Positions 20,530 through 60,040 of a stretch of 64,000 nucleotides of DNA are shown here, one piece after another. Numbering within the stretch: position 1 is the first letter of the stretch; every line of letters begins with the position of its first letter. The notes below the pieces were generated by a model, which was not told the origin of the DNA, searched no databases, and saw nothing but the letters and a program-made list of their open reading frames with translations. The stretch lies in NCBI RefSeq assembly GCF_019175385.1, contig NC_083346.1, positions 83,342,543 through 83,406,542 on the forward strand, read 5' to 3'. A program made the position numbers and the translations under genes. This DNA is from Lycium barbarum (Eukaryota; Streptophyta; Magnoliopsida; Solanales; Solanaceae).

Positions 20530-20753
20530 ATGAATCAAGACGGGAGTTTAAGAAAAAGCAAGAGAGTTAAGAACTCAAACTTCATTCCACCTGGATCAGT
20601 TGCATCTTTGCTAAGCCAAAGAGTTTTGAATCACAAGCACAAGCTAAACTCAAAATACATTCCAGAACCTTATGTTAATAAGTCAAATGATAAGCATTAC
20701 AAGCACAAGCAGAACTCAAACTACATTCCAGCTGGATCTGAAGTGGAACAAGT
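20530..20753 (+). CDS. First coding exon of the CACTA gene, left half
   Basis: The ATG at 20530 follows an intron acceptor (TTGCAG at about 20516). The 73 codons before the duplication are Lys/Ser/Asn-rich, with a loose repeat of KHKxNSxYIPxxS type (three copies). That repeat suggests a DNA- or RNA-binding or linker segment, not a fold I know. The frame runs into the CAAGT duplication at 20749-20753 and resumes in phase at 29614 after element D. Confidence 0.75.
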
Positions 20754-21499
20754 TGTGACGACCCGACTAGGGGCCGTGACAAGTACCCGATACTTGTACC
20801 GAGCACCCCTTGTCTATCATATTACCTTTATCTCTTAGCAAGCCGTATAAGCAGTGCCATTTTTTTTTTTTGAACATTAACATTAGCGGCGTCATTATGA
20901 ACATAGACTAGTAAACTTCGTTATCACTTTATACAACAACCATGCCAAGACACCATATATCTAACCGTACTTGACTGACTGTACATATCTGTCTACGAGC
21001 CTCTAGACATAGTTCACTTATACATAGAAAGGGCTGAATATTGTCGTGCCCGAATAGACATACCCAAAATAGTACCGCTGGAGTGAGGCTCCGAAACAAC
21101 TGGAGCACTGTAGAGTACTGCTGGTAAGCTCCTAAAGATCAAGTCCACCTGTCTGCTGACCTGCGCGGCATGAAACGCAGCGTCCACAAAAGGGACGTCA
21201 GCATGAATAGTGTACCGAGTATGTAAGGCATGGAAAATAATGCAAGCAGTAACATAGAGTACGATTAATAGTATCACGGAGTCACAGGGCATATAACGAG
21301 GCAAGGAAGTAACCTGTGCATAGGAAGGCCCCCTTTCAGGCCGGCTGTCATGTAGGCTTGTCCTTTCGTCTTTGAAACGTTTCTTTTCATAAGCATAGGA
21401 ATTAACATTTATATATTACTTATTCTCGTGTGCAGAAAACAATACATTTCTATAACGGTACCTTTTGCTCACATTTACAGACGCCGAATACAATCGGCT

Positions 21500-21536
21500 C
21501 CCCCCCACCCCCCCCCACCCCCCCCCCCCCCCCCCA
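21500..21536. repeat. Poly-C tract in 3' LTR of D
   Basis: A run of C interrupted by two or three A residues. The sister LTR has a shorter pure run at about 26765-26786. The length difference is typical of slippage and may also reflect assembly error. Confidence 0.85.
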
Positions 21537-23583
21537 CGGTGTCCCTCATTCTCGTATACAGAAAACAGTACAATTCAGTAAACAGTATCTTTTATTCACA
21601 TTTACAGACGCCGAATACAATCGGCTCTCCCAACCCCTTCCCCAACGGTGTCCCATCATATCATATCATACATATACCATACATTATATATATACAGACG
21701 CCGCGTATGGCTCTCCCATATCCCGCGTCCGGGCATCCCGCGTCCAGCATGGAATCCAGCTGAATCAGGTGGTGATATAACAGTGGCCCTTCCCCTTTCC
21801 CCATACACATATACATATACATTTGCTTATCTGTTATACATATACACGTCTCATATATAATTACTTATCTTATTTATATATACATATCCATACACATATA
21901 CCTGTTTATTATACATATATCATATAAGCACACAAGAGCCAAGGAAAATCATATATCCATCGGAGTGACGTAAGGTCGGTGACCTCCGATTACGTTATGG
22001 AATGCTAGTTATAACTTTGTCTCACCTTGAAGGAACAAGTATTTTAAGGCGAGACTATCAACGGAGAATAGTGTTACAGTAACCGCGGAATGAAATCGGG
22101 GACATTATGGATGACAGTTAAAGGCCTTGGAGTCATAGAAAATAAAGTTATAACTAGGAAATATAAATACGATTTAGAAATTAGTCTATCAATTTCATAT
22201 TCATATTGGATACTTATTTTAGAAATCTCAGTCATAGGATCGTTCCGGTCGTACTTATCATGAGCACATTCTCTTGTCTAACATTGTCGTTATCATTATC
22301 CCCATTGAAACATTCTCGGAAGAGTAGTCATAGTACTTATCATTCGGCAAAAAGTAGAAAACTTTAGGTGCGGGTTCCGGGGAATAGGGTTGTCCCCGAG
22401 GCTCGTACCCGACTTAGTACAACTAAGACATGCCATAGAAAGAAGGGTGAAGCCTTACATACCTCTTTCCGCTCCTTTTGCTATCCCAAATTCACGTCAC
22501 AATCTCGTCGAAATCTGCGAATTGGTCATTTTTACCAAAACTTTCATTAGTATACTTTGAGTTAAAATCTTAAGGAAACACTTTGCTATCGAAATTTCGG
22601 CAGCATTTCCTCTATAAGTGTACCAATCCCGAGAATAAGGCTCGGCCCCAAATCAACAACAACCATCCGGGAATGTAACCCGGCCAAACCAACAATGATA
22701 TTAACAACGCCAATAAGAGGTTCAAAGCTCATTCTAACATTAATAACTCTTTATTATACCACTCAACGCTATTTCGTTTTCATTCAATCAACCGCATACG
22801 ATCGACCCAACACCCACGCTCATACGTTCAAGTACCAACATAAACCATTTGAACAAGATTCAAAATTGCCTCGGACAAACCACAAAATAGTCAAACAATT
22901 CAAACAACGCACCATAGAATCCAAAATCTTCCAACTTCCATAGGAACCATCACAACACATTTCTTTCTCCAAAATTTCACAATCTATACCAACAAACCAT
23001 ACTTTTACCACATTGTTATCAAAATTACAAGAACTATATTTGGCTCACATTAGTTTCCACAACAAACCATAAACTACTATAATCTCAACTTTGAATCATT
23101 AAACTTCTTTTGGCGTTATAAAATCCACAACGACACAACTAGTATACTAAATAAAATTAATTCATCCTTTCTTCAATAAACAACATCACACACGGCCTCA
23201 ACACTACATACACATTTTCATGCATTCCGTCCATTCCTCCATTCTACAACATATACAAATCACCCATAACCCAAACAACAATCACAATACTAAATAAAAC
23301 AATTGAATCATTGCCTTGCAACTATCCATACACACGGCCACACATCAACACACACATATTTCACAAATTTCACTCATTTTTACATACTACAACACTTCAA
23401 CAACATTCATAACACATAAAAGAGGGTTAGTTCTTTACCTTCATTCTTCAACTTTTCCACTTGGTTAAAGCTCATAAACCATCCATATAAGTGTTCTACT
23501 TCTTCCAACAACTCCACCATGTTAACAAGCACCTTCCACTTAGCAAGAAAACCAAAAGAAAATGATCCTCGATGAACAAAATA

Positions 23584-23608
23584 GAGGGGCTGGTTTCGGC
23601 CAGCCCCT
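23584..23608 (-). other. Perfect hairpin in LTR of D
   Basis: AGGGGCTGG and CCAGCCCCT form a perfect 9-bp inverted repeat around TTTCGG. It is kept in the other LTR at about 29080-29104. It lies near the U3/R side of the LTR, where the transcript would begin. Confidence 0.6.
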
Positions 23609-24113
23609 AGCCGAACCCTCACCCTATTTTGTTTTTGTTTTCTCTTCTTTTCCCATGTCTTGAATTAATTAGGCACTCATATATACATACATATAATTCA
23701 AGCATGTGAGGGGCACATGCCCCCCTCTCTAGAAGATTCTTTAATTTTCTTGAAATTTTCCTTAAATTAAAAGATGAATCAAGTCTTGCCATGTGCACTT
23801 TGACCCCTATGTTCTCCAACACATGGCCAATGTGGCCCTTTGAACCTTCATGAATTTTTTGTGAAATTCCCATTTCGTCCCTCGACTTTTCTCAATATGA
23901 CCATTTTACCCCTAACCTTCCACATTGTTTCTATTGATCATTTTGCAATTTCTCTTCTTGCCCTTAGCCTCTCACAATATTTTCATACTAATAATGGTCA
24001 TAAATAGTATTCTTCACGACTTGTGCATTAATGTAATATTTGAAAAGGTTTTCGTCCTTGACTTTCCGCGACGACTTTGAAATATTCAAATGTTCAAAAT
24101 GCGGGCCATAACA

Positions 24114-24128
24114 TTCTCCCCCCTATAG
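24114..24128 (-). other. Polypurine tract of element D
   Basis: On minus this reads CTATAGGGGGGAGAA, directly before the 3' LTR start. Just before it is ATTCGAGGACGAATGTTC, the same text seen before the tracts of A (60020-60040) and B (52259-52278). This is the expected primer site for plus-strand synthesis. Confidence 0.85.
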
Positions 24129-26002
24129 AACATTCGTCCTCGAATGTTCAACTGACCTTATGGGGATTTATAATATTTCGGGAGGGTCCGTCCTGTAGAC
24201 GCTCTCCTCTTTATGCCCGTTCTTTACCCTTTATCTTATCCTCCTTGACCTTCTCGCGCTTCCTCGTTTCACGTTGTAGGTTTCCTTTTTTTTTTTCCAA
24301 TACTTGAAAATATTGCGACCCCTTGATGTCATAAGATAATATGGTCTCCCCCTCCTTTAGGGGATTCTTTATATTCTAACAGTTCCTTCCTTCGCCTCGG
24401 TGCACGACATAGCGAAATTTTCTTACCATAAGTCTTCATTTTATTTCCAGTCGACGACATCATTCTCGTCAGCATTCTCATATCTTTCCATCCACCATTG
24501 ATCCTTTCAAGAGTCGGGGTCTCCTATCATCGTCACCGGACCTAACCATTCTTTTCTCTTACTTCACGTTCCTTATCGTGGTTGGCTTCACTTGTTTAAA
24601 TTGGTTTTCAATCCTTACACACTTTCCTTTTGTTCATGTTGCCACACTTGTTCGTTTTACACACCTATACTTGTAATTTCACCTCAGATAATTCCATGTT
24701 CTTCCAGTTATTCCCCTTTTTGGAGGTCTTGCCCATTCATGTTTCTTATCCTTCACTCCTTTCGGATATTTAGTCTCCTTAGCTTCCACCTAGTTACCCA
24801 TTTTCTTCTTCAAACATCATAATATTCATACTTTTCTATCCCTAATCCATAACGAAAGTAGCGGCTTATCTCGTGGCGTTTGCACCATTTGTTTCACTAC
24901 CGTTCAGGTTCCGGTATCCCTCTTTCTGTCGTAGCATAGATCGTTGGGACACACGCGTCCACTAATACCTTCACACACGAGATATCACACATGTTCATCT
25001 GCACATACACACATGATCAATACCACTAATCCACAAAACACTTCCAGACGCTATTCAAGCCTATCCGAATTCTCGAGCTGTGAGGTACTCTTTGTCTCTT
25101 TACCGAGCTGAGCTGCCTCGTTCTACGCATCTTCTTTAAGGATTCCAGTCATCCCATATACTATAGTTTCACTTAGACTATTCTGATTTTCCATTTGTCT
25201 GTTGTGTCAAAACATGTAGAATTTCTTCAAAACTTCCTAGGGGGTCACCCATCCCAGGATTGCTCCCACTTGAGCACACTTAACCTTGAAACTTTGCTGG
25301 GATCCGATGCCTTAATGCTGATATTTTCGCGTCGACTTCCGCGCATGATCTTTACTACATAATTTGAGGCTAGTCGAGGTCTTACAGATCCCGGGACACC
25401 CTCGTAATGCGTCTCTTCTTTCACAATTACCTCTTTACCCTTTTTGGGCCTCAGAGCTCATCTTTCACTCCCATGTATAATTACTTTTCATCCTGGGTTC
25501 CCAGGCCCCTGATGATAATAGTTACGCCTTCGTTGCCATTATTTTATGGATGCCCCGATATCAGTCTGTTCGAATATCTTACTCACCGTTTTTTACACAG
25601 TGACCTGTAGCAAGATTAGTTATCAACTTTTCGAGTCCTCCATCCGACCTTATCTTTCTTATACCATACTCCTGTACGCAGCAAATACTAGTGGCACCTT
25701 ACAGAACATACAGCTATGCCACGTTCTGGCCATCCGAAGCTGCTCATTCCAGATAACAGATCAAATACGTCAGTACTTATCCTTGTGACCTTCCGTATCG
25801 CCACTTACCTTTTCCGTGGTATGTAAGGCTCACATCAGAAATCTCATTTCCTAGTACTTGGCTCTATCGCACGATCTGAGACAGAAAGAAGGTCAACAAT
25901 TCATAAATGCCCTGTAGCCTTCTGTTTATAAATGTGGCCGGCAACACACCATAAACAGGACTCTACTGGACACGGCTCGTAGACAATCCCTAGGACCGAA
26001 CT
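24129..26002 (-). mobile_element. Internal region of element D, non-coding
   Basis: No gag, protease or polymerase motif is found in any frame. The sense (minus) strand is purine-rich. The part nearest the primer site (about 25830-26000) is the Tekay-like leader. The part around 25340-25800 matches the internal region of element C (GATCCCGGGACA / GATCCCGAGACA, then GTATAATTA text), so D and C share an ancestor. Element E shares the CTG[T/C]ACGCAGCAAATAC phrase (25671 versus 4128). Confidence 0.8.
25232..25335 (-). ncRNA. 5S-rRNA-like sequence in element D
   Basis: On minus the segment aligns without gaps to plant 5S rRNA from near its 5' end to the GGGAAGT region. Best-kept parts are CGGATCCCA, GGTTAAG-GTGCT (internal promoter A-box region) and GGGATGGGTGACC (C-box region). 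It is in the sense of the element, about 0.68 kb after the LTR. The comparison is with the 5S sequence as I remember it. It is diverged and lacks the 3' end, so it is a captured derivative and not a working 5S gene. Confidence 0.82.
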
Positions 26003-26014
26003 GCTCTGATACCA
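26003..26014 (-). other. Primer-binding site of element D
   Basis: On minus a perfect TGGTATCAGAGC, complementary to plant initiator tRNA-Met, four bases after the 5' LTR end. Confidence 0.92.
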
Positions 26015-26018
26015 CTTC

Positions 26019-29000
26019 TGTCACGACCCGACTAGGGGCCGTGACGAGTACCCGATACTTGTACCGAGCACCCCTTGTCTATCATATTACCTTTATCTCT
26101 TAGCAAGCCGTATAAGCAGTGCCATTTTTTTTTTGAACATTAACATTAGAGGCGTCATTATGAAAATAGACCAGTAAACTTCGTTATCACTTTATACAAC
26201 AACCATGCCAAGACACCACATATCTAACCGTACCTGACTGATTGTACATATCTGTCTACGAGCCTCTAGACATAGTTCACTTATACATAGAAAGGGCCGA
26301 ATACTGCCGTGCCCGAATAGACATACCCAAAATAGTACCGCTGGAGTGAGGCTCCGAAATAACTGGAGCACTATAGAGTACTGCTGGTAAGCTCCTAAAG
26401 ATCAAGTCCACCTGTCTGCTGACCTGCGTGGCATGAAACGCAGCGTCCACAAGAAGGGACGTCAGCACGAATAGTGTACCGAGTATGTAAGGCATGGAAA
26501 ATAATGCAAGCAGTAACATAGAGTACGATTAATAGTATCACGGAGTCACAGGGCATATAACGAGGCAAGGAAGTAACCTGTACATAGGAAGGCCCCCTTT
26601 CAGGCCGGCTGTCATGTAGGCTTGTCCTTTCGTCTTTGAAACGTTTCTTTTCATAAGCATAGGAATTAACATTTATATATTACTTATTCTCGTGTACAGA
26701 AAACAGTACATTTCTATAACGGTACCTTTTGCTCACATTTACAGACGCCGAATACAATCGGCTCTCCCCCCCCCCCCCCCCCCCCACGGTGTCCCTCATT
26801 CTCGTATACAGAAAACAGTACAATTCAGTAAACAGTATGTTTTATTCACATTTACAGACGCCGAATACAATCGGCTCTCCCAACCCCTTCCCCAACGGTG
26901 TCCCATCATATCATATCATACATATACCATACATTATATATATACAGACGCCGCGTACGGCTCTCCCATATCCCGCGTCCGGGCATCCCGCGTCCAGCAT
27001 GGAATCCAGCTGAATCAGGTGGTGATATAACAGTGGCCCTTCCCCTTTTCCCATACACATATACACATACATTTGCTTATCTGTTATACATATACACGTC
27101 TCATATATAATTACTTATCTTATTTATATATACATATCCATACACATATACCTGTTTATTATACATATATCATATAAGCACACAAGAGCCAAGGAAAATC
27201 ATATATCCATCGGAGTGACGTAAGGTCGGTGACCTCCGATTACGTTATGGAATGCTAGTTATAACTTTGTCTCACCTCTAAGGAACAAGTATTTTAAGGC
27301 GAGACTATCAACGGAGAATAGAGTTACAGTAACCGCGGAATGAAATCGGGGACATTATGGATGACAGTTATAGGCCTTGGAGTCTTAGAAAATAAAGTTA
27401 TAACTAGGAAATATAAATACGATTTAGAAATTAGTCTATCAATTTCATATTCATATTGGATACTTATTTTAGAAATCTCAGTCATAGGATCGTTCCGGTC
27501 GTACTTATCATGAGCACATTCTCTTGTCTAACATTGTCGTTATCATTATCCCCATTGAAACATTCTCGGAAGAGTAGTCATAGAACTTATCATTCGGTAA
27601 GGAGATCGGGATCAAAAATCCCCTTTGGACTCACTTCGAGTAAATTAACCAGGATTATAGGAAAATCCGGGGGTAACGGGCCCACCTCGGGCCGGATGAG
27701 GTAGCGTGTACGATTTACGCATGTCACGTGTCACAGCGTTGCTTGTGAGGGTCTTGGGGTAATCGGGTCCCATTTATACACGTTATAGGGGTCTAGGAGG
27801 TCTTGTCATCATTTGGCACCTTTCTAGTTCAATTCTAGTGAGTAAAAAGTAGAAAACTTTAGGTGCGGGTTCCGGGGAATAGGGTTGTCCCCGAGGCTCG
27901 TACCCGACTTAGTACAACTAAGACATGCCATAGAAAGAAGGGTGAAGCCTTACATACCTCTTTCCGCTCCTTTTGCTATCCCAAATTCACGTCACAATCT
28001 CGTCGAAATCTGCGAATTGGTCATTTTTACCAAAACTTTCATTAGTATACTTTGAGTTAAAATCTTAAGGAAACACTTTGCTACCGAAATTTCGGCAGCA
28101 TTTCCTCTATAAGTGTACCAATCCCGAGAATAAGGCTCGGCCCCAAATCAACAACAACCATCCGGGAATGTAACCCGGCCAAACCAACAATGATATTAAC
28201 AACGCCAATAAGAGGTTCAAAGCTCATTCTAACATTAATAACTCTTTATTATACCATTCAACGCTATTTCGTTTTCATTCAATCAACCGCATACGATCGA
28301 CCCAACACCCACGCTCATACGTTCAAGTACCAACATAAACCATTTGAACAAGATTCAAAAATGCCTCAGTCAAACCACAAAATAGTCAAACAATTCAAAC
28401 AACGCACCATAGAATCCAAAATCTTCCAACTTCCATAGGAACCATCACAACACATTTCTTTCTCCAAAATTTCACAATCTATACCAACAAACCACACTTT
28501 TACCACATTGTTATCAAAATTACAAGAACTATATTTGGCTCACATTAGTTTCCACAACAAACCATAAACTACTATAATCTCAACTCTGAATCATTAAACT
28601 TCTTTTTGCGTTATAAAATCCACAACGACACAACTAATATACTAAATAAAATTAATTCATCCTTTCTTCAATAAACAACATCACACACGGCCTCAACACT
28701 ACATACACATTTTCATGCATTCCATCCATTCCTCCATTCTACAACATATACAAATCACCCAAAACACAAACAACAATCACAATACTAAATAAAACAATTG
28801 AATCATTGCCTTGCAACTATCCATACACACGGCCACACATCAACACACACATATTTCACAAATTTCACTCATTTTTACATACTACAACACTTCAACAACA
28901 TTCATAACACAAAAAAGAGGGTTAGTTCTTTACCTTCATTCTTCAACTTTTCCACTTGGTTAAAGCTCATAAACCATCCATATAAGTGTTCTACTTCTTC

Positions 29001-29608
29001 CAACAACTCCACCATGTTAACAAGCACCTTCCACTTAGCAAGAAAACCAAAATAAAATGATCCTCGATGAACAAAATAGAGGGGCTGGTTTCGGCCAGCC
29101 CCTAGACGAACCCTCACCCTATGTTTTTTTGTTTTCTCTTCTTTTGTCATGTCTTGAATTAATTAGGCACTTATATATATATACATATAATTCAAGCATG
29201 TGAGGAGCACATGCCCCCCTCTCTAGAAGATTCTTTAATTTTCTTGAAATTTTCCTTGAATTAAAAGATGAATCAAGTCTTGCCATGTGCACTTTGACCC
29301 CTATGTTCTCCAAAACATGGCCAATGTGGCCCTTTGAAACTTCATGAATTTTTTTGTGAAATTCCCATTTCGTCCCTCGACTTTTCTCAATATGACCATT
29401 TTACCCCTAACCTTCCACATTGTTTCTATTGATCATTTTGCAATTTCTATTCTTGCCCTTAGCCTCTCACAATATTTTCATACTAATAATGGTCATAAAT
29501 AGTATTCTTAACGACTTGTGCATTAATGTAATATTTGAAAAGGTTTTCGTCCTTGACTTTCCGCGACAACTTTGAAATATTCAAACGTTCAAAATGCGGG
29601 CCATAACA
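26019..29608 (-). repeat. 5' LTR of element D
   Basis: It is 3590 bp and intact. It contains the U5 hairpin (26020-26045), the conserved GGACGTCAGCACGAA block (about 26456-26475), the CGGAGTGACGTAAGG block (27211), the palindrome ACCGAAATTTCGGC (28083) and the hairpin at 29080. The extra 246 bp relative to the 3' LTR lies at 27597-27843. Confidence 0.93.
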
Positions 29609-29613
29609 CAAGT

Positions 29614-33579: not shown

Positions 33580-34362
33580 ACTGTTCTAAATAATAAGCTA
33601 GTTTTTGACCAATCTTGCTAATAAAATTGTTTATTTGAAGTGCAATTTTTCTGTTAATGTGCTGGACCTGCTGAAATTTTGTATGTGTCCCAAGTCTGGT
33701 CCCTTTGGTGCACAAATTGGTAGCAATGCAAAAAACCAGCAATAGGGCTGAACTGCTACCAGTTGCTGCAGTCTTTCTTTGGAAAAACTAGCAGGAATTT
33801 TGAATGTATGGCCTTGTCTTGTGTCCTTGTATGTTGTCTCTGGTATATTTTGCGTTGTTGTCGAGACCTGTTGAGGTGAAATACCAATAATACAAAGTTA
33901 TACATGCTTCTGATACCATCACAACAGCCATCCACCAACAACCACCTTATTTGCACAAGCTGCCCAGCCTACTATTCTGAATAATAAACCAGTTTTTGAC
34001 CAATCTTGCTAAGAAAATTGTTTCTTTGAAGTGCAATTTTGCTGTTAATTTGCTGCACCTGCTGAAATTTCGTATGTGTCCCAAGTCTGGTCCCTTTGGT
34101 GCACAAATATGCAGCAATGCAAAAAACCAGCAATAGTGCTGAACTGCTACCGGTTGCTGCAGTCTTTTCTTTGAAAAAACCAGTAGGAGTCTTGCATGCA
34201 TGGCCTTGTCTTGTGTCCTTGTATGTTTTCTCTGGTATATCTTGCATTTTTGTCCGGACCTCTTGCGGTGCAATAGCAATAATACAAAGTTATACACGCT
34301 TTTGATACCATCACAACAGCCATCCATCAACAACCACCTTATTTGCACAAGCTGTCCAGCCT
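33580..34362. repeat. 391-bp tandem duplication near the CACTA 3' side
   Basis: Units 33580-33970 and 33971-34362 start ACTGTTCTAAATAATAAG or ACTATTCTGAATAATAAA and end in GCTGCCCAGCCT or GCTGTCCAGCCT. They differ at roughly a tenth of positions. They explain the similar minus-strand ORFs at 33756-33956 and 33947-34405, which are not otherwise gene-like. Phrases such as AAAAAACCAGCAA recur at 19367, so the repeat may have a relative on the other side of the element. Confidence 0.9.
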
Positions 34363-34918: not shown

Positions 34919-35310
34919 TAACGAAGAATACGAGTATAAGATGCTTTAATTAGAAGGGAATGACGTTTGACGACCCTAAGTAAGATTTCAAAGGCAATGG
35001 GAATAAGAGATAGATTATGCTCCACAATGACTAACTATAGGTTCTGAAGACGTGAAAGTTGCAGATTTGCACTTTGGCCCAGTCGATCGTAAAATGAAAT
35101 ACGGAACGTAAAGTGGTATACGACCCTTAAACTACCATGTCGTATTTCAACATACAAAACTTCAACTTTCTGTGAAATGCTTGGATGGCTAAAGACGACT
35201 TGAAATTCAGACCGTAAGCTGAAATACGGCCCGTAAACTGAGTCGTAAACCACCATGTCCTTAGCTTGGCTTTCTGGTTCTGTTATGCTTAAATACGTCC
35301 ATTAAATATG
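34919..35310 (+). mobile_element. 5' LTR of element B, first part
   Basis: It matches the 3' LTR of B (52336-52509) from GAAGAATACGAG onward; the first ~35 bases of the LTR are missing. It contains ACGGAACGTAAAG, GGCCCGTAAACTG and related U3 motifs (about 35100-35245). It is cut at 35310 by element C, and ATATG (35306-35310) is the target duplication. It resumes at 42029. Confidence 0.85.
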
Positions 35311-37495
35311 TGTCACACCCCAACCTCACTAGGGTGTGATGGGCACCCGACCCTTACTTAGGGCCGAGCGAACCCTCAGACTCTTACTGCACATACGTCA
35401 CGTCAAACATTTTTTTTTTTAAATCAAAGATGGTAAAGTACATAGCAAAAATTTTCTTTCAGAAATATTCTTTCTCGTGGCTTTCAAGCCGAACAAATCT
35501 GTGACCATACAAATTCGGTGCATAACATAAACAGACATATCGGCTGACGGAGCCGCTTACAGACTGACAACCAATACCCACGACATTGTCTGCAAAGCCT
35601 CTAACAAGATCCCAAAAGCACAACATACAGACTCTAACTCGGCAGCACTCCGGGAACAAATGGAGCTTGCCATCTGCACTGGATCATCTTCTATCTGTCC
35701 TCAACTCAACTGGGAGTACCTGCGCGGCATGAAACGCAGCCCCCGAAGAACAGGGGGTTAGTACGGAAATGTACCGAGTATGTAAAGCGAAAATATAACA
35801 ATAATAATCTAAGATCCGAACCAGAAGTACGGAAATACAGCAGACAGGATCGAACCCGAGTCCGAACAGAAATACAGAGTGTATGGGCAGAACCACAACA
35901 TACACCATAAGCACGGGGTATAGCCGACAGAGTTGTAGTATGAACTGGAGGCACGGAGTCTAACTGGCAGAATCATCGTGCGGGTCAGGGGCACCAAGTG
36001 CGACTGACATAATCCCAATCGAAGCTAGAGGTGCAGAAATATAACCGACGGAATCATAGTCCGGCTCAGTCATACAGAAGCAACACAGACCGAATCATGC
36101 ATGCAGAATCATAAACTTACACAGGTACAGATAGTATACATTTACCTCAGATCTTGGCCCTTTAGTGAGGGGCGCGGTAGTTAGTGCAATGGAATGTGCA
36201 CGACTAACCAGAATGCCACAGGGTCACCTCTGACGTACAAGTCATACACAAGAGGTTCCGGAATGCAAATACGGCAATTAGAATGCCAAAATGCTTTGCT
36301 TTCTTTTGAAAAACATTTCCATCTCATACACACAGAAAATCAAACACACAATTACCGCGGCCAAAAGTCCAGCGGTCACTATCACACATACCGCGGTCAA
36401 GAACCCAGCGGTCACTATCACACATACCGCGGCCAAGTGCCCAGCGGTCACTATCCCAATTTCGACATACCGCGGTCAAGGGTCCAGCGGTCTATGTCGG
36501 GCATACCGCGGTCAAGGGTCCAGCGGTCAATATCACAAATGCGGCATACCGCGGTCAAGGGTCCAGCGGTTAATGCCACACATGCGGCATACCGCGGTCA
36601 AGGGTCCAGCGGTCAATGTCGGACAGGCCGCGGTCGAGGGTCCAGCGGCCAATATCACACACACGCATAATAATATAACCGGCCCTGGGCTCGGCAAAAG
36701 AGAGAATAACATAATGCCAAATTATCACGTCCCAAACATAAATCACGCATGCCAGAATCATGCATCACACAAGATTCACGTATGCCAACATCGTATATCA
36801 GGAAAATACAGAAGATAAGTAGTTTATCCAGAATATCAGGGTAAGATTTCCAAAAACGTTCTAGATGTCAAAAATATTTTATAAGGCTCATAAAGGTGGT
36901 CCTAGCACCTATCGTATAATAAACAGCATAATAACCAGGAGCTACCTGTGAGCTCCGGACAAAAGTGAGCTGGCTAAAGCCATTCCGAAGATATCAAGGT
37001 TTCTGTCTCCACAATCGTTTCAATAAACATTAAATCAAACTCAGAATAGTTAAAATAACTCCCGTTTAGTAGTCGGAACAATAACCATAAGTTCCCTTGA
37101 CTTATCGTACAAGAATGAAACAAACAGGACCATAGAAGAGAAGTCGGGGATAGCGGGCCCACCTCGGGTCAAGTCGAGGTGGCAGACATGAATCACGCAC
37201 ATTAAACTCTACGGAGTCACCCAGGAAAGTTTCAGAGCGATCGGATTACATTTGTGAAAGTTACGGATGCTTAACCATTTTTCTAACAAAATGCACCTTT
37301 TGTAGTTCAATTGCATTGAATGAATAGTACCAAAAATCAATCTCGGATTTCTATGAGCAGAATTTCCCCTGAGGCTCAAATCTCAACCTAGTATGTCTAG
37401 GACATGCCAAAGAATGAAGGGGAAGGCTTTACATACCTTAGTTGCGTCTTACGCTCGTCCAGGTTCAGTTTCTGTTTCGCCCGAAATCTACAAAT
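35311..37495 (-). repeat. 3' LTR of element C, truncated
   Basis: It is nearly identical to 38685-40550 but ends at AAATCTACAAATG, where the two LTRs part. It carries about 73 bp more near 35462-35535 than the other LTR and eight copies of a GC-rich minisatellite (36354-36660) against two in the other. ORFs over the repeat (36194-36818) are artefacts. Confidence 0.9.
36354..36660. repeat. CCGCGG minisatellite, eight units
   Basis: Eight units of the type ACCGCGGTCAAGGGTCCAGC plus a variable tail, 36-45 bp each. Each unit has an inverted pair CCGCGG...CCAGCGG. The 5' LTR of the same element has only two (39645-39714), matching the last two units here. Confidence 0.95.
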
Positions 37496-37951
37496 GACAC
37501 TTCGGGGAGGTTCCTTTCTTTCCTTCAAAAGTCTTTTCAATGTTACATTTGCCATCAACATCTTTCACCTCTTGTCACACTTCTCGGTTACTCACAACGT
37601 TATCATAATCCCACGTCATATCAAATAGATTCATATCGGACAGATCCATAATCAGAGCCAGGTGTACTGAACTATGGCGGACGGATTCGCAGTCAGAGTC
37701 AGACGTATGGAAATATGTCAGACAAATCCGTGATCAGAACTAGATGTACAGAGATGTATCAGACAGATTCGTAATCAGAGTCGGACGTACAGAGGCATAT
37801 TAGACAGAGCCTCATCAAAGTCAGAGGCACAGACGCATAACAGACAGAATTATGATTAGGATCAGACCACTTCCACATACTCTAATTTCCTTTGGGTTAC
37901 CCTATATTTCCATTTATATCTTATACTTACACTTGTGAAAATTTTTGTATC

Positions 37952-38053
37952 CTTCCCAGGGGGCCACCCATCCTGAAATTGCTCTCAGCTTAGCACGCTT
38001 AACCTCGAAACGTTGATGGAATTCGATGCCTTAACGCCGATATAATCGCATCC
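37952..38053 (-). ncRNA. 5S-rRNA-like sequence in element C
   Basis: On minus, 102 bases align without gaps to plant 5S rRNA starting at its first base (GGATGCGAT) and ending after GGGAAG. By my count about three-quarters of the positions agree with the 5S sequence as remembered. The best parts are GGTTAAGCGTGCT (A-box region) and AGGATGGGTG-CC-CCTGGGAAG (C-box region), the internal promoter of RNA polymerase III on 5S genes. The last ~17 bases of 5S are not recognisable. Orientation and position, 0.63 kb after the LTR, are the same as in D. Confidence 0.85.
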
Positions 38054-38669
38054 TTTTTCTCATATGGCCTTGATTTCATAATCCAAGACGGGTCGAGGTC
38101 TCACAGATCCCGAGACATTGTCGGAGCACGTCTTTCTTTGTACATTTACTATTTTGCCCCTTTTGATTCCTAATGTGCACTTTTCACTTATGTGTATAAT
38201 TATTACCTGTTCTGGGCTTCCAGATTCCCGATGGTGGCGAACATACCTTCGTCGCCAATACTTACGAATATTTCGGATATCGGCCCGTCCGGGCTCTTAC
38301 TCACTATCCTTACATAACAATCTCCATTCACCATTCCTGCCATTCAGAATCTGAACATGGAAAATATCAACAACATCTCACAAAGCATACTAACCATATA
38401 TCACATTCAAACTATTCGGAACTTCCAATTTCCAGATAATAGAGCAAACATGGCTTCCCATATCCTTTCCCATCTTATTCCGTCGTATGTAGGGCTCACA
38501 TAAGGAATCTCATTTCCTATAACTTCGCTCTATCGTACGATCTGAGACAGAAAGAAGGTCAACAATCCCTAAATGCCCCGTAGCCTCCTGTTTATGAATG
38601 TGGCGCGCTACACACCATAAACGGGACTCTACCGGACACGACTTTGCAGACAACCCCTAGGACAGACCT

Positions 38670-38681
38670 GCTCTGATACCA
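38670..38681 (-). other. Primer-binding site of element C
   Basis: On minus TGGTATCAGAGC, a perfect initiator tRNA-Met complement, three bases after the LTR end. Confidence 0.92.
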
Positions 38682-38684
38682 CTC

Positions 38685-41600
38685 TGTCACACCCCAACCT
38701 CGCTAGGGTGTGATGGGCACCCGACCCTTACTTAGGGTCGAGCGAACCCTCAGACTCTTACTGCACATACGTCACGTCAAACTTTTTTTTTTTTTTAAAT
38801 CAAAGATGGTAAAGTACATAGCAAAAATTTTCTTTCAGACATATCGGCTGACGGAGCCGATTACAGACTGACAACCAATACCCACGACACTGTCTGCAAA
38901 CCCTCTAACAAGATCCCAAAAGCACAACATACAGACTCTGACTCGGCAGCACTCCGGGAACAAATGGAGCTTGCCATCTGCACTGGATCATCTTCTATCT
39001 GTCCTCAACTCAACTAGGAGTACCTGCGCGACATGAAATGCAGCCCCCGAAGAACAGGGGGTCAGTACGAAAATGTACCGAGTATGTAAAGTGAAAATAT
39101 AACAATAATAATCCAAGATCCGAACCAGAAGTACGGAAACAGCAGACAGGATCGAACCCGAGACCGAACAGAAATACAGAGTGTATGGGCAGAACCACAA
39201 CATACACCATAAGCACGGGGTATAGCCGACAGAGTCGTAGTATGAACTGGAGGCACGGAGTCTAACTAGTAGAATCATCGTGTGGGTCAGGGGCACCAAG
39301 TGCGACTGACATAATCCCAATCGAAGCTAGAGGTGCAGAAATATAACCGACGGAATCATAGTCCGGCTCAGTCATACAGAAGCAACACAGACCGAATCAT
39401 GCATGCAGAATCATAAACTTACACAGGTACAGATAGTATACATTCACCTCAGATCTTGGCCCTTTAGTGAGGGGCGCGGTAGTTTGTGCAATGGAATGAG
39501 CACGACTAACCAGAATGCCACAGGGTCAGCTCTGACGTACAAGTCATACACAAGAGGTTCCGGAAGGCAAATAGGGCAATTAGAATGCCAAAATGCTTTG
39601 CTTTCTTTTGAAAAACATTTCCATCTCATACACACATGCGGCATACCGCGGTCAAGGGTCCAGCGGTCAATGTCGGACAGGCCGCGGTCGAGGGTCCAGC
39701 GGCCAATATCAAACACACGCATAATAATATAACCGGCCCGGGGCTCGGCAAAAGAGAGAATAACATAATGCCAAATTATCACGTCCCAAACATAAATCAC
39801 GCATGCCAGAATCATGCATCACACAAGATTCACGTATGCCAACATCGTATATCAGGAAAATACAGAAGATAAGTAGTTTATCCAGAATATCAGGGTAAGA
39901 TTTCCAAAAACGTTCTAGATGTCAAAAATATTTTATAAGGCTCATAAAGGTGGTCCTAGCACCTATCGTATAATAAACAGCATAATAACCAGGAGCTACC
40001 TGTGAGCTCCGGACAAAAGTGAGCTGGCTAAAGCCATTCCGAAGATATCAAGGTTTCTGTCTCCACAATCGTTTCAATAAACATTAAATCAAACTCAGAA
40101 TAGTTAAAATAACTCCCGTTTAGTAGTCGGAACAATAACCATAAGTTCCCTTGACTTATCGTACAAGAATGAAACAAACAGGACCATAGAAGAGAAGTCG
40201 GGGATAGCGGGCCCACCTCGGGTCAAGTCGAGGTGGCAGACATGAATCACGCACATTATACTCTACGGAGTCACCCAGGAAAGTTTCAGAGCGATCGGAT
40301 TACATTTGTGAAAGTTACGGATGCTTAACCATTTTTCTAACAAAATGCACCTTTTGTAGTTCAATTGCATTGAATGAATAGTACCAAAAATCAATCTCGG
40401 ATTTCTATGAGCAGAATTTCCCCTGAGGCTCAAATCTCAACCTAGTATGTCTAGGACATGCCAAAGAATGAAGGGGAAGGCTTTACATACCTTAGCTGCG
40501 CCTTACGCTCGTCCAGGTTCAGTTTCCGTTTCGCTCGAAATCTACAAATGGTCATGTTTACCAATTGTCAACCATAAGACTTTAAGACTTAAATCTTGAA
40601 GCAACACTTTTCTACAGAGATTTGGGCAGCATTTCCCCTATACATATAGCACCCCCGAGAATTCAACTCGGCCAGAATGATCAACAACAATCCAACAACA
40701 ACACTAACAACAACAACAAGCACTATAACACACAATACAACACAACTAGTCTTGTTTTCCACATAGTCCAACAACTTCCATTCCAACTTCACATTCCCAA
40801 ACCAATTTCAATGTTTTCATATTCCTTACTAATCAAAATCATTGCAATACCATTTGGAAACATTTCATACCATTTCTACAAAATATTCACGAAATATACA
40901 AAATATACGAACTTTCCGCCAAAGCCATAATGCATCCAAAACTTCTGATCTTTAACATACATATTCATAGCATGTTTCCATCTTCCAATTCCATCAACAA
41001 TCATCATAATATGCACCTTAACAACTTCATTTCCACATTTACATAATTTTATCACAAGATTACTAACCTACCTATAGCAACTTAACAACCAATTCTCATA
41101 CAAATGTGAGCTAGTATTCTTCCGTTTACACCATATTGCAGTTACAACACAATTAACATCATGAATAAAATTGGTTCATTCTTATACACACATACATATA
41201 CATTCGACCACATACCAATATTTCCAACCTCAACCCAAACCATTAATCTTTCATTTCCAACATAGAATTCACAACAACCATAACTAGAATACTACATAAA
41301 ATTAATTCATCTTTGTCCATACACCAACACATACACACGGCCACACATACATACATACATACAAATACCATGCAAACTTCCATATTCTCAAGAGTTTTAG
41401 CCTTTCCTACATCCCACAACATGAACAAAGCTTTCATACCATACAAAAGGGGATTAATTCTTACCTTTCTTCTTCAACCTCTTCACTTGACTCGAATGCG
41501 GAAACGATGAAACAGACGACCTATCTTCCGAAACAACTATACCATGTTGTAGAGGACCCTTGAATTAGAGGGAATACAACAAGAAAATAATTTTTAGAAC

Positions 41601-42023
41601 AAGATTTCATGGGGGTAAAATTCCCCCACCTTGGCCGAAATGGCCATGGTGCTTTTCTCCTTGTTCTTTCTTTTCTTTTTCTCAAGCTTTCTTGAAACTT
41701 CTTGAAGACTCCCCCCTCTTATATAATTAATCACATGATTAATTAAATGGGTTTGGGCCATGGCACTTGGCCGGCCACCCCTTTAAAATTGGGCCTTGAT
41801 TTTTTTTTTTTTTTTTGAGCCCAATTGGCTACAAATCTTGTTTTGTAACTCCCGAAACTACTTCCCAAAATTCCAATTTTTCCCTTGGCCTCCTCTCATA
41901 TTTCCACACCAACGTTATCATAGCCGGCACATTCATACTAAGTAAGGTCCAAATATAGCCTCATTCATTACAAGTCAAATTATCTCAAATTTTTCCGAAT
42001 ATACAAAAATGCCCGATATAACA
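38685..42023 (-). repeat. 5' LTR of element C
   Basis: A full LTR of 3339 bp. The U5 end has the inverted repeat TCACACCC/GGGTGTGA, differing from the other LTRs but still pairing. The minisatellite has two units (39645-39714). The GGCAGCATTTCCCC block is at about 40625. ORFs within (for example 38988-39320, 39403-39815) are not conserved between families. Confidence 0.92.
39645..39714. repeat. CCGCGG minisatellite, two units
   Basis: The two units here equal units seven and eight of the array in the other LTR of C. Confidence 0.93.
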
Positions 42024-42028
42024 ATATG

Positions 42029-48500: not shown

Positions 48501-51500
48501 AGGGAAGTTAACTCCTAGATATATAGGACCCTATAAAATTATCAGCAAGGTGGGTCATGTCGCCAATGAATTGGACTTGCCTTCGGAGCTTGAATCAGTC
48601 CATCCAGTCTTCCACGTTTCGATGCTCCGCAAGTGTATTGGACATACCACAAAGATTGTCCCGATGGATGATGCGGAAGTGACAGAAAAGCTAACCTATG
48701 AAGAAGTGCCTATTGCTGTTCTAGACAGGCAAGTGCGAAGACTCCGAAATAAAGTGGTAGCTTTAGTTAAAGTCTTGTGGCGAAACAATTGTTATATCCA
48801 GTAATTTCGAACACTCGGAAAATTCGAAATAATTTGTGGCTTGGGAGAAATGAGGCTATATTTTGATTCTATCCAATATGCATATGTTACTCAGGAAAAT
48901 ATTGATGTGGAGATATGAGAGGAGGCCAAGGGAAAAATAGGAATTTTGGAAATTAGTTTCGGGAATTACAAAACAAGAATTCTAACCAATTGGGCTCAAA
49001 AATAAAAAGGAAAAATGAGGCTCAATTTGAGAGAGGTGGCCAGCCAACAATGGCCCAAGCCCATGGAATTTTAATTAATTTTCCATGTGATCATTATTAT
49101 ATAAGCTTAGAAGCTTCAATACTTATCAAGAAAACAAAAGAAAAATTGAGAGGAAAAAGAAAGAGGCAATTCAGCCTAGAGAGAGAGAGAAAAGAAAAGG
49201 AAAGAAAAACATTCTTGGAGCTTGATTCTTGGTTCAAAAATCCATCTCTTTTGAAATTTCTACTAAGCTCAAGGTGCTCTTCAAGTTGGTATAATTATTT
49301 TGGCAAGAAAGTAGCTTTGGTGGCAAGTGAAGAACTTGAAGAAAGGTAAGAATCAATTCATTTTCTTATGTTATGAAGTTTGGTTTATGTTGTAATATGT
49401 AGAAATGAATAGAATTTGTGAAAATATGGAAGTTTGCAAAGTGGGTGTGTTTGTTGGAAAGTGGTCGTGTGTGTGTGTTGATGTATTGATGTAATGAGTT
49501 GAATTTTTATGTTGTATTCTAGTTGTAGTTATGGTGAAAATTGTATTAGAAATGAAAGTTGAATGAATTCGACGGAAATTGGAAATATGGAATGTAGCCG
49601 TGTGGTGTTGTGTTGATGGTGGAAAAATGAATTAATTTTGTTTGGTATGTTAATTGTGTTGTTATGGTTTTGTGAAGTAGATGGAAGAATAATGGGTTAA
49701 GCTAACATGAAGAAATTGTTGTTAAGTTGTTGTCGGAAAGTATGTCGTTTTAGTATGATCTTATGAAATTAAGAAAATGAAGTGGTTAAGGTGCAAATGA
49801 TGATTTATGTTGATGAACTTGGAAGATGGAAATGTGTTATGAACATGTATGTTAAAGATTAGGAGAATTGGATAAATTATGGCTTTGATGGAAAGTTTGC
49901 ATGTTTGTATATCTTGTGTATATCTCGTGTATATATTGTAGAAATGTTATGATATGATTCCGAATGGTATTGTAATGACTTTGATTAGAATAAATGAGAG
50001 AATGTTGGTATTGATTTGGGAGTGTGAAGTCGAAATGAGGATTATTGCATTATGTCGTAAAGTAGACTAATTGCGTATATTATGAATTATGATAATTGTT
50101 GATGTTGTTGATGTTGTTGTTGGGTTGTTGTTGGTTGTTTGGAGCCGAGTTGAATCTCGGGGAGGCTATATGTATAGGGGAGGTGCTGCCCAAATTCTTA
50201 TAGACAAGTATCGGTTAAGGTTAGAAATTTTAAGTCTCATGAATAGTAACTGGTAAATGTGACCATTTGCAGTTTTTGGGCGAAACAGGAATCGAGTTTG
50301 GACGAGCGTAGGACGCAACCAAGGTATGTAAAGCCTACCCCTTCATTCTTAGGCATGTTCTAAACGTAATAGGCTAGGCCGCGAGCCTTAGATACGACTC
50401 CGTCCCTCGGAATTCGAGATTGAAATCCGCCCCAATTTCTTCAGTAAGATTGAGTCTATTTCCTTATAACTTGTCTTCAAAGTGAGCTTTAAGTATGCAA
50501 CTCTCCTAAACGGAGTCGGAATACTTCCAAATGATTATGGACGACCTCATAAGGTCTACTATTTGTAATTTACGAACGTCGCCTTGGGTTGGTCTGAGGT
50601 GGGCCCACAAGGCCCGATACTCTCGGTATAATTTTAACTACTTTGTTTTTGTCCGATTTTCTCAGACCACATCTAGATTAACATTCTAATCATGATATGA
50701 CTTTATTTTTCTATAAATCTTACGAAATGATTTTTGACATCTGAAAGTCTTATTCTGGTAATAATCTGTCGTGCCTTCCCAAATGATATATAGGCGCGTA
50801 TTATGAATACTGTTCGGATACTTTGATTCGACCTGCCATTTGGTCTATTTCAGTTCCATTGAGTCTGCATAGTGATTTGTATGTATGTGGTTTCTCATTA
50901 ATCTGTTCGTGGATGCCTCAACGCTTCCTTCACTGCGCCCGGGCCAGGTTCTGTTACTCGTGCACATTCGTCTGCATTATTCACCGAGTCCCTCGTACTT
51001 GCGGGCCGGGACACGTTATCTGTATATGTTTATGTTATGATGATACGGGGTTGGTGGCCAGGATGGCACATGATGATTTTCCACCGAGACCCGCAGTAGA
51101 GGGCCGGGACACGTTATGAATACATGGTACATGATTATGACACACATGAATTCACTTACCGAGTCCCTTATCAGAGAGCCGGGACATGTTATATGCTTAT
51201 ATGATGATTATATGATTTGGCATGCACCACCTATACTTTGGTACTATTTCTCTTTCCTGAGGTCTCGAATAAGGTACTCACCTTTTTGTACTACGGACCC
51301 TCACTATAACTCTGTCTGTTATATTTCTGAACCTCCGGTTCCGAGTGTGACTTTGCTAGTTATACCCTTGCATCTCCGGCTTTGACTTTGGTTTTGACAG
51401 CTATGTTTTTGTACTCCTGTTCTTGATCATGCTCATATTTGTTACATTTCTGCTTTACATACTCGGTACATTTTCCATACTGACCCCCGGTTCTTCGGGG

Positions 51501-52509: not shown

Positions 52510-52689
52510 TGTTACACCTCGAAAAATTTCCCGTTGGTACGCAAGTAAACGAACTAATGATGTGTGCGAGGAGTGCGAGTGTATAATGTTTCATGGGAAA
52601 TGTATGTAAAGGGATGTGGATGATTAGAATGAAAAGTCGAGAAATGAGAAAAATTGAAAGTTGGAAAAACTGCCCAGTGGTTGTATAGT

Positions 52690-52932
52690 GCAGAATACGG
52701 ACCGTAAAGTGCAATACGGTCCGTAAACTGTCATGTCCAACTTCAACTCTCTACCAGCTAAGGAAAAGGTATAATACGACCTGGTGGACAGACCGTAAAG
52801 TGACTTACGGCCCGTAAACCATGGTCGTAAATCACCATGCATCCAGGCCAAAGTTTCTGGTTCTGCTTAAGCTTAAAAACGACCACGAGGGACGGTCCGT
52901 AAACTGAAATACGGACCGTAAACCTCCATGGA
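52690..52932. promoter_or_regulatory. ACGGACCGTAAA motif cluster in U3 of A
   Basis: Six or seven copies of [T/G]ACGG[A/T/C]CCGTAAA in three pairs (52695/52713, 52792/52808, 52890/52910) plus GGTCGTAAA variants, all upstream of the AT-rich core region near 52970. Each copy is close to its own reverse complement. The position in U3 suggests promoter control, which is an inference. Confidence 0.55.
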
Positions 52933-54809
52933 TGACCACTGTTCACCCAGCACAGATTTTCCAATTCATTAAATATGAGGACCAAGACTTATTTTTTTTC
53001 ATTACAACATTACACCACTTCTCTCTAGAACTTCTCTCTACATTTATTATATGAGTTTTCAAGGATTATAAGTCATCCATAACATTAAGACAAGTGAATC
53101 AAGGATAAGGGAATCATCAAGGATCATCCAAGTCAAGAAATCCAAATGGAGAAAAACTAGGGTTTAGCTTAAAGAAGAGTATTATCAACCAAAGTTTGTT
53201 CCTACAACTTCTAAGGTAAGATTCATGATTTTTACAAGATGTTTAAGGTATTGGAGAATTAAAATACATGGATTGAAGAAAATATGGTCAACTAGGTCAT
53301 GAATGATGAATAGTGACATTTTGAGAAATAGTTTGAATTGAGATATGAATGTTGTTGTGTTGTGATATGAATGTGTTATAAATGGTATTGAGATCATGAA
53401 CTAAAAACTTTAGACGAATGGACGAAGATGGGTGTTATGACCATGAATGTGGGTGAATTAGAGGCAAATTGAGGAATCTAGATAATGTGTATAATGTGAA
53501 TGACTAATGGCCATTGTTATGATATTAATGAAGGTATAAACGCTAGCATTGGAAGGGAACGTGCAAGTGTAGAATAGTTCGACGGAAAGGTATGTAAGGC
53601 TAACCCTTCTTTCATAAGGCATGGTTCTTGGCCAAATTTCTAAATTCCTCTATTTGAGTATGTTGTCTTCACATGGTTGACATTCCGAGCTCCTAAGCTC
53701 ACGACCCTTGATATGTACTATGCTTATACTACGTTCCTCGTATGACGAGTAATTCTATAATGTAAATGTAACCATAATGATGAGGATAGTAATGATGATG
53801 AGAGTAAAATGAAACTAGAGATGCTTACGAGCTACGATATACGTGTATGTGTGCCTATGAAGGGCTATGATAAGACCCCGAGCTTATGATGCCGGGTAAG
53901 ACTATATGTATATAACCATGCATAAAGTATGTATATGATTACGTAACGCGCGCGCACTTCTGCAGAAGGTACGGATAACCCCGAAGCCTTGGTAGGGCTA
54001 GGTATGTATGATCTTGAGCCTTGGTTGGCTAAGCATGTATGAAACATCGATCCTATGAGGTCGGGTATGCTATGTAAATGCTATGTATGTATATAAGTGT
54101 ATGGATATGTATATAATATGAATATGAATGTGAAAATACAATGTATATGAATGCGAATAGGGCCATGTATACGAATATGAGCACAAGTATGGTACGAGTA
54201 TTGTTATGGAATACGAACGACGATGTATGCAAGTAAGCGATATGATGATGATGATATTACTGTCTCCCCTCCTATGCTATCGTCATATGATATCTATTAT
54301 GCTTCTATATTGATGTTGATCATGCTTTACATACTCAATACATTCTTCGTACTGACGTCCTTTTGTTTGTGGACGCTGCGTCATGCCCGCAGGTGCACAT
54401 GGAGACAGACTTGATCCTTAGCTGCCTATTCGGAGATATCCTAGAGAGCTCCATTTCCTTCGGAGCCATATGTTTTGGGTACTCATTCTTTTGTGTATAT
54501 AATTATGGGCATAGCGGGGTCCTGTCCTGCTAATGTGATATGTTATACTCTTAGAGGCTCATAGACATGTGTGTGTGTGGGTAGATGTGTTTGGCCTTGT
54601 CGGCCTATGTTTTGTATATCACTTTGTCGGCCACGTTGGCCCATGTACATTGATGTGGCATAAATGCCTATGATGATATAAATGTGCGGTTGTCCATATG
54701 GGACTAGTTGACGAATGAATGGAAATGCATGTATAATTATGTGGATCACCTAGATGTAAGTATAAGAGTAAGCTAAGAGGGTGCTCAGGTGGGTTAGCAC
54801 CGGGTGCTC

Positions 54810-54835
54810 GTCGCGGCCCCGAGTCGGGTCGTGAC
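54810..54835 (+). other. Hairpin at the U5 end next to the PBS
   Basis: GTCGCGGCCC and GGGTCGTGAC pair over ten positions (two of them G-U in RNA) with a six-base loop. Every LTR end in the window keeps such a stem; see the findings. Confidence 0.6.
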
Positions 54836-54840
54836 AAAAG

Positions 54841-54852
54841 TGGTAACAGAGC
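54841..54852 (+). other. Primer-binding site, first internal copy of A
   Basis: TGGTAACAGAGC, one mismatch from the initiator tRNA-Met complement. The second copy at 62399-62410 reads TGGTATCAGAGA. Confidence 0.88.
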
Positions 54853-55046
54853 AGTTCAGTCCTAGGATGTGTCTACGAGCCGTGTCTAGTAGAGTCTTGG
54901 TTATGGGTGTGTTGCGCGCCACACTTATAAACGAGAAGCTGCGGACATCTTAGGAATATATGACCTTCTTTCTTAATAAGAATCGAGCGATAGAGCTATG
55001 ATGTAAGAAATTCTTGTTCCTAAGTTGTGTGTTGTGTATTTCAGAG

Positions 55047-56393
55047 ATGCCTAAAAAGAAAAAGGCTACAGCAGCCCAAAAGGGAGAGACGGTGGCAGAA
55101 AAGCGGGCTGAAAGAGCACCGCCACCGGTAGTAGAGGAAGATGAGTCCCAGAGTGCGGCTCAATCTTAGTCCTCCCAGACAGTGCCTATTACTGAGGAGC
55201 ACGTGGGAGCCTCAGCCCCAGCTCCAGCTCCTCCACCAAATGCTTTGGGCCAAGACGTGAGAGAGGCCATTAATTTGTTGACTCAGTTGGTTGCGACCCA
55301 GACTCAGAGGCCAAGCGCAGGGCAAGGTGATAGGACTGTTAGTGCAAGGGCCCATGACTTCATTGCTTTGAAACCCCTGGAATTCTTCGGGTTGAAACTC
55401 GGAGAGGATCCCCAGGACTTTATTGATGGTATGCTAAGGACGCTCCGGTTGATACATGCTTCAGACACCGAATCGGTGGAGCTAGCGTCCTATAGATTGA
55501 GGGATGTCTCAATCCAGTGGTATACGGTTTGGATGGATTCGCGTGGAGCCAATGCACCTCCACCGGTATGGCAAGAGTTTGTTGATGCTTTTCTCCGTCA
55601 TTATATGCCTTCGGAAGTTCGGCGAGCTAGGGCCGATAAATTCTTGAATTTGAGGCAAGGTAGCATGAGTGCTACAGAGTATAGTCTCCGCTTCAATTCC
55701 TTGGCTAGGTATGCTTCGGCCATGGTAGCGGATATGGGCGATCGGGTGCACCGGTTTGTGAAAGGCCTAGCGCCCCACTTGATGGATAAATGCTTGAGTG
55801 CGTCCCTTCAGGATGGCATGGATATTGCATGCATTCAGGCACATGCTCAGGAATTAGAGGAACACCTACAGCAGCGGAGAAATGAACGTGAGCAGGATAG
55901 GGGCCATAACAAGAGGGCCAGACCTTCGGGTTCGAGGAGCGAGTCCAGGGGCGGACACAGACAGCAGTTTCCCAGCCATTCAGGCTATTCTATGACCAGT
56001 ACACCTCCATAGTTCACGGGGCAGAGATTTGACAGATCTACTCGTTCCGAGCCAAGTCAGGGTTATTCGGGGTCTCAGTTTAGAGGTGATTCAGGCCAGC
56101 CAAGGCCACCCATACCACGATGTTCTCAGTGTGGAAAGTTGCATTGGGGTCAGTGCCGATCAGGTTCAGATGTTTGCTATTCATGTGGTCGGCCAGGCCA
56201 TATTATGCGTGATTGCCTCTCAGTACATGGTAGAGGTAGGACCCAGCCATCAGGGTCGGTAGCCGGATCTTCGGCATCTGTACTCCCTACGGGGCCAGGT
56301 TCACATGCGCCAGTCGGCCATGGTAGAGGTAGAGGCAGAGCTCCCAGTACTAGCGGTCCTCAGCACCATATTTATGCTTTGGCTGGACGCTAA
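55047..56393 (+). pseudogene. gag: Gag of element A, first copy
   Basis: The ATG at 55047 follows the 211-base leader. The product has a Lys-rich start, a Pro/Ala linker, a capsid-like region (DFIDGMLRTLRLIHASD, then VELASYRLRDV, then RADKFLNLRQGSMSATEYS), an Arg/Ser-rich RNA-binding stretch and a CCHC knuckle CYSCGRPGHIMRDC (56175-56216). In-frame stops are TAG 55167, TAG 56010 and TAA 56391, each a Gln codon (CAG or CAA) in the second copy. Gag and Pol share one frame with no shift, as in Tekay elements. Confidence 0.93.
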
Positions 56394-59846: not shown

Positions 59847-60040
59847 GGTATGCATGTTTTCCCTTTTATACATTCAGGTCGTGTGTGGCCAAATTTCTAG
59901 TGCTATTGTATTAATGCCCTGTGAGGCATTGTTATTGTGGGCTGTTGTGACAGGGTGGTAGTGCCATATTACAGAGGAAACTCTGGCGAAATTTTTATAG
60001 AATTCCCCAAAGCCTTTAACATTCGAGGACGAATGTTCCT

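Follow-up and report, generated by a model that had tools for sequence, protein, structure and literature searches.

Two large non-autonomous LTR retrotransposons of Lycium barbarum, here called B and C, each carry in their interior a 102-nucleotide block that aligns to the start of 5S rRNA, and this block has changed less between the two elements than the DNA surrounding it, which hints that it may serve the element. Both elements lie within the window, the whole 64,000-nucleotide stretch of contig NC_083346.1 that was analysed, and their features are listed in Table 1. The block was probably captured a single time and carried into both families, the simplest account because it is collinear in the B and C interiors. 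Its retention in two families as a captured 5S control region, acting at the DNA level as a TFIIIA/Pol III site, is the reading that we tentatively prefer, at somewhat less than even confidence.

Identity of the 5S-derived blocks

The first-pass annotation had described a gapless match of minus-strand positions 38053-37952 to the beginning of 5S rRNA, and the coordinates, the strand and the start at 5S nt 1 all proved right. The block in C is identical to 5S nt 1-102 at 75 of 102 positions with zero gaps (BLAST of 5S against the 64-kb window, E = 9e-13), the reference being a 5S sequence of the Arabidopsis type. Against a patched reference, in which nt 1-30, 34-62 and 66-89 follow angiosperm oligonucleotides given in PMC5974128 and the other positions stay of the Arabidopsis type, identity is 76/102. 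In an ungapped scan of both strands of the window, the best place besides the C and B blocks reaches 47/102, and the top match among 200 shuffled 5S queries is 50/102; with the blocks at 74-76/102, a chance match was rejected. No 5S similarity past nt 102-103 was found in the alignment of the blocks to 5S.

Support from the covariance model is marginal. Rfam RF00001 gives the C block 27.7 bits (E = 0.00095 in a 401-base stretch), short of the gathering score of 38. When the whole window is scanned, the block has E = 0.15, next to the unrelated HOTTIP_3 (E = 0.084) and SCARNA7 (E = 0.33), with no entry in the window at the gathering threshold. Since unrelated families score like 5S window-wide, the covariance scan alone would not call the block; its 5S identity is decided by aligning the sequences directly and by a second occurrence in element B.

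This second block (25334-25233), overlooked in the first-pass annotation, lies in an element of a family distinct from that of C and of the same lineage. It matches the Arabidopsis-type 5S sequence at 74/102 positions and the patched reference at 75/102, and RF00001 gives it 22.9 bits (E = 2.9 for the window; gathering score 38). The two blocks are identical to each other at 80/102 positions, and the letter of the Arabidopsis-type 5S is kept by at least one of them at 84/102. At 15 positions both differ from this 5S in the same way, and at 3 positions each differs in its own way. The shared changes at 5S nt 24 and 49 fall on sites where the angiosperm oligonucleotides also depart from the Arabidopsis-type sequence, the published letter at nt 49 being that of both blocks, and 3 of the 15 shared changes (nt 50, 67 and 93) are inside the boxes as placed here.

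A profile of the block, searched against the window, matched B and C and otherwise two places with E = 1.8 and 5.2, and a second copy of family C is absent from the 64-kb window. An exact-pattern search for relatives returned 0 matches in viral_contigs and 0 in genome_contigs; neither is a plant collection, so these zeros say nothing on how widely the block is spread.

Structure, coding content and lineage of the host elements

Table 1. Features of elements B and C, in window coordinates.
Feature	Position	Strand	Remarks
Element C, non-autonomous LTR retrotransposon	35311..42023	minus	6713 bp, TSD CATAT
TSD CATAT of element C	42024-42028 and 35306-35310		both sides
5' LTR of element C	38685..42023	minus	3339 bp
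Conserved leader of element C	38500..38684	minus	common to B and other window elements
Primer binding site of element C	38670..38681	minus	TGGTATCAGAGC
5S-derived block of element C	37952..38053	minus	ungapped alignment to 5S nt 1-102
A-box region of C block	37992..38004	minus	5S nt 50-62, ungapped alignment
Intermediate element region of C block	37982..37987	minus	5S nt 67-72, ungapped alignment
C-box region of C block	37957..37974	minus	5S nt 80-97; 16/18 to 5S; holds canonical AGGATGGGTG
First TTTT after C block (+113)	37938..37941	minus	possible Pol III stop
3' LTR of element C	35311..37496	minus	2186 bp, 5'-truncated
Element B, non-autonomous LTR retrotransposon	20754..29608	minus	8855 bp, TSD ACTTG
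TSD ACTTG of element B	29609-29613 and 20749-20753		both sides
5' LTR of element B	26019..29608	minus	3590 bp
Primer binding site of element B	26003..26014	minus	TGGTATCAGAGC, beside 5' LTR
5S-derived block of element B	25233..25334	minus	same length, collinear place
First TTTT after B block (+103)	25229..25232	minus	
Polypurine tract of element B	24114..24124	minus	adjoins 3' LTR
3' LTR of element B	20754..24113	minus	3360 bp

The setting first described for the block in C, on the sense strand and 0.63 kb into the interior of an element with 3.3-kb LTRs, stands with respect to strand, position and the 5' LTR (3339 bp), and has to be corrected for the 3' LTR, which is only 2186 bp long. An internal deletion in C has removed the polypurine tract and the beginning of the 3' LTR. 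Measured downstream of the primer site, the block lies at 0.63 kb in C and at 0.68 kb in B. The primer site, TGGTATCAGAGC, is of the initiator Met type.

Over aligned letters, the LTRs of a pair are identical at 3285/3343 positions in B and at 1832/1864 in the part shared in C (98.3% each), indicating that both elements inserted recently. A global alignment of the B LTR with the C LTR has 1658/2935 identical positions (56%) and 829 gap columns, with local patches of about 70-75%. We also observe that minus-strand positions 37647-37863 in the C interior resemble a part of the element's own LTR (35791-35988) and positions 51287-51450 at 63-65%.

In total, 24 ORFs of at least 50 aa overlap the B and C interiors, 17 of them on the opposite strand and 7 on the sense strand, and the Pfam scan covered these 7. 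None of the 7 sense-strand ORFs has a Pfam match above cut-off (the weak match is to DUF772, 13.1 bits with a cut-off of 23.1), in agreement with the earlier description of the host as non-autonomous. By homology of the leader and the 3' end, B and C are assigned to the Ty3 chromovirus lineage, putatively Tekay/Del. The primer-site leader of B and C matches elements D, E and others in the window, and the last 74 bp of the B interior are 75% alike to positions 59980-60053 of element D. The ORFs of D contain RVT_1, RNase H and Integrase_H2C2 above the Pfam cut-off, with rve and a chromodomain (20.4 bits) below it. Apart from B and C, a profile search with the interior found five other leaders, the stretch 4235-4103 and two places with E = 0.41 and 4.9. 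The stretch at 4103-4235 (minus strand; 24.5 bits, E = 6e-8 to a part of the B/C interior) is in an element that has the same leader (4607-4812), and no 5S block was found in that element.

Conservation of the block relative to its surroundings

The B and C interiors are collinear over 870 columns with 66.8% identity, and the block is located near the end of this stretch. Outside the leader, which is itself identical between B and C at 161/183 positions, the block is the joint best-kept of 581 windows of 102 columns, the tie being the window shifted by one column. Its B-C identity of 80/102 compares with 320/518 for the other interior outside the leader (Fisher P = 0.0014), made up of 274/441 before the block and 46/77 after it. 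Within the block, the 5' half is identical at 38/49 positions (P = 0.03 versus the surroundings) and nt 50-102 at 42/53. The case for selection on the block is suggestive, because it is built on two copies, one window and several tests.

A second better-kept patch lies on the minus strand 40-90 nt upstream of the block (about 38093-38143 in C and 25374-25424 in B; GGGATCTGT.AGACCTCGAC). This patch has no 5S and shows B-C identities of 0.72-0.76 in 50-column windows.

Promoter boxes, spacers and possible Pol III signals

The A-box and C-box regions had been called well kept in C, and they do match 5S well, at 12/15 and 16/18 positions. The limits of the A-box, intermediate element and C-box within the block are our placement. 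With respect to the C-box, the motif AGGATGGGTG is named as such in PMC10853983, which also describes two motifs, of 4 nt and 5 nt, that lie between these boxes and vary among Cassandra elements. Under our own placement of these two motifs as spacers (nt 63-66 and 75-79), B and C agree at 3/9 spacer positions, and at 39/44 of the remaining positions of nt 50-102 versus 320/518 elsewhere in the interior (P = 0.0002). Counted as differences within nt 50-102, this amounts to 6/9 in the spacers and 5/44 in the rest (one-sided P = 0.0013 with the spacer placement inferred; other placements give P = 0.02 and 0.08). When boxes are instead compared with the rest of the block, the match to 5S gives P = 0.06 for the C copy and 0.50 for the B copy, B-C identity gives P = 0.32 (two-sided), B-C differences give P = 0.17 or 0.11 and changes from 5S in either copy give P = 0.08 or 0.02, the last two pairs depending on the box limits.

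In both elements the first TTTT counted from the start of the block is met past its end, but on the minus strand 9% of positions have this tetranucleotide within 18 nt, so that the evidence for a stop signal is weak and may reflect chance. On the upstream side, ATTATG occurs 29-24 nt before the block in both copies (minus strand; 38077-38082 in C and 25358-25363 in B), which we take to be close to the site of the TATA-like box in plant 5S genes.

Possible control region or passenger

We propose that a segment of 5S rRNA or of a 5S gene (nt 1-102) entered the interior of a large non-autonomous Ty3-type LTR element in a single capture that predates the split of families B and C, both of which have carried it ever since. 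It would have been kept because its internal control region may still bind TFIIIA/TFIIIC as DNA, in the manner of a type 1 Pol III promoter. Transcription by Pol III would then begin at the first base of the block, run along the sense strand and end at the nearby TTTT, yielding a 5S-like RNA of about 103-116 nt. Because such an RNA would begin downstream of the primer site, it would lack both the primer site and the 5' LTR and could not serve as the transposition RNA; the latter has to be initiated in the 5' LTR, presumably by Pol II. The advantage to the element would be local, with a bound Pol III factor keeping a silenced element accessible, or with the block acting as a bare factor site. 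The Pol III promoter role suggested in the first-pass annotation is retained in part: the B-C substitution pattern favours it under our placement of the spacers, but the block cannot drive transposition RNA.

In favour of a control region, the LTRs are alike within pairs and only 56% identical across B and C, which points to recent activity of both elements after a long separation. An account by promoter alone does not predict that the 5' half of the block, which lies beyond the control region, is likewise better kept than its surroundings. Almost as probable as a functioning promoter is that the block is a functionless relic travelling as a passenger, a piece of 5S taken up when reverse transcription switched templates, whose slow change would be due to chance or to variation in the local rate. 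The drift of the blocks to 74-76/102 of 5S is consistent with this, as are the end of the match at nt 102-103, a retention of structure no better than chance, the several nonsignificant comparisons of boxes with the rest and the existence of the better-kept patch without 5S upstream. What a passenger explains less well is that the block ties as the best-kept window outside the leader and that, under the main placement, B-C differences are concentrated in the spacers.

Returning to the control region, its most far-reaching form would be a working internal 5S-type Pol III promoter in the body of a protein-less LTR element, selected across families and separate from the Pol II promoter of the LTR. 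This would make B and C two-polymerase retroelements, in which the second polymerase serves accessibility, a short 5S-like RNA or positioning near 5S arrays, and not the genome RNA. We consider this form doubtful.

Origin of the block and possible action as RNA

With respect to origin only, and compatibly with the other readings, the source of the block may be an inserted Cassandra LTR or 5S-headed SINE instead of 5S itself, which we think unlikely. Insertion of SINE3 into an LTR has been proposed as the way in which Cassandra and Ajax arose (PMC10886601), and the variation in the spacers of the block is like that of Cassandra. Nevertheless, a search of 0.9-1.0 kb per element found the block not to be enclosed by TG...CA ends 150-700 bp apart with exact 5-bp repeats, and in place of a convincing longer target duplication only short repeats within chance were seen; both searches are weak tests, because such an insertion would be old. 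That the similarity begins at 5S nt 1 also counts against this origin.

TFIIIA, uL18 and uL5 are partners of 5S RNA, and a block contained in the Pol II genomic RNA could bind them as an RNA-level mimic and so aid export, localisation or packaging. The lesser change of the 5' half of the block agrees with such a role, and 16/18 of the 5S helix pairs (Rfam) can still form in both blocks. However, the retention of pairs does not exceed that expected if the same substitutions are placed at random (P = 0.32 in C and 0.08 in B; with a fuller pair list P = 0.45 in C, 0.29 in B and 0.28 jointly), the folds of minimum energy depart from that of 5S and score no better than those of shuffles (z = 0.30 and 0.60), and the closing helix I is lost through the truncation at nt 102. 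In a control, z was -1.81 for the full 119-nt 5S but -0.37 when only its first 102 nt were folded; truncation by itself thus abolishes the fold signal, and the fold test is too weak to decide against a role as RNA. Overall, packaging or localisation through a 5S-like fold, as suggested earlier, is not supported, and we regard the mimic as distinctly unlikely. The 5S mimic in the plant TFIIIA exon (P5SM) is likewise a 5S-like stretch in a longer RNA; it works by RNA shape, and no shape constraint was shown for the blocks.

Recombination between packaged RNAs that moved the block between B and C after their separation, again compatible with the other readings, would account for identity being raised in the block only, but it is very improbable, given that the lower identity of the collinear flanks on both sides (48/79 and 75/112) demands two crossovers near the 5S edges and that the contrast between boxes and spacers is left unexplained.

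Comparison with known 5S-carrying retroelements

Cassandra is, like B and C, a plant non-autonomous LTR element with a 5S-derived control region, in which the boxes are kept and the spacers vary (PMC10853983), a pattern that may be mirrored in the 39/44 versus 3/9 seen here in two copies with inferred spacer placement. The 5S sequence of Cassandra is situated towards the middle of its LTRs (PMC10853983), whereas both of our blocks are in the interior and no LTR in the window has a 5S match above 47/102; the interior position had been described as unlike Cassandra, and this is borne out. Furthermore, Cassandra elements are TRIMs, a class below about 1 kb; they measure 565-860 bp and their 5S region in the LTR starts the genome RNA (PMC10886601), in contrast to 6.7 kb for C and 8.9 kb for B, with LTRs of about 3.3-3.6 kb, one of them truncated. 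The Ajax TRIMs of nemerteans share with B and C a partial 5S that covers the promoter boxes and is unlikely to yield functional 5S RNA, and they differ in being animal elements of 421-434 bp with the 5S in their LTRs (PMC10886601). SINE3 also has 5S-derived sequence within a retroelement, although B and C differ from it in having LTRs and no clear longer target duplication.

In overall structure, B and C fit LARD-type Ty3 chromovirus elements, with long LTRs, a primer site, 5-bp duplications and no coding domain found; the polypurine tract is present in B and lost by deletion in C. No report of a 5S block in a LARD or in the interior of a large LTR element was found among the titles and abstract openings listed in literature searches.

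In the literature examined, the 5S-type promoters described for LTR elements belong to miniature elements and sit within the LTR, and the processivity of Pol III has been put forward to explain the shortness of these elements (PMC10886601). An interior 5S control region in an element about 10 times longer cannot start the genome RNA, and the interior block would thus either point to a second way in which retrotransposons use Pol III factors or be a striking passenger. In addition, such blocks could give spurious 5S-like matches in 5S annotation and in probe design.

Other repeats in the window

Positions 52510-56442 and 60054-64000 form a 3.9-kb repeat with 96% identity that includes an LTR and gag, which suggests a complex of the form LTR-interior-LTR-interior or else two adjacent copies from a single family. 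A further repeat of 391 bp occurs head-to-tail at 33580-33970 and 33971-34362, with its two units being 91% alike.
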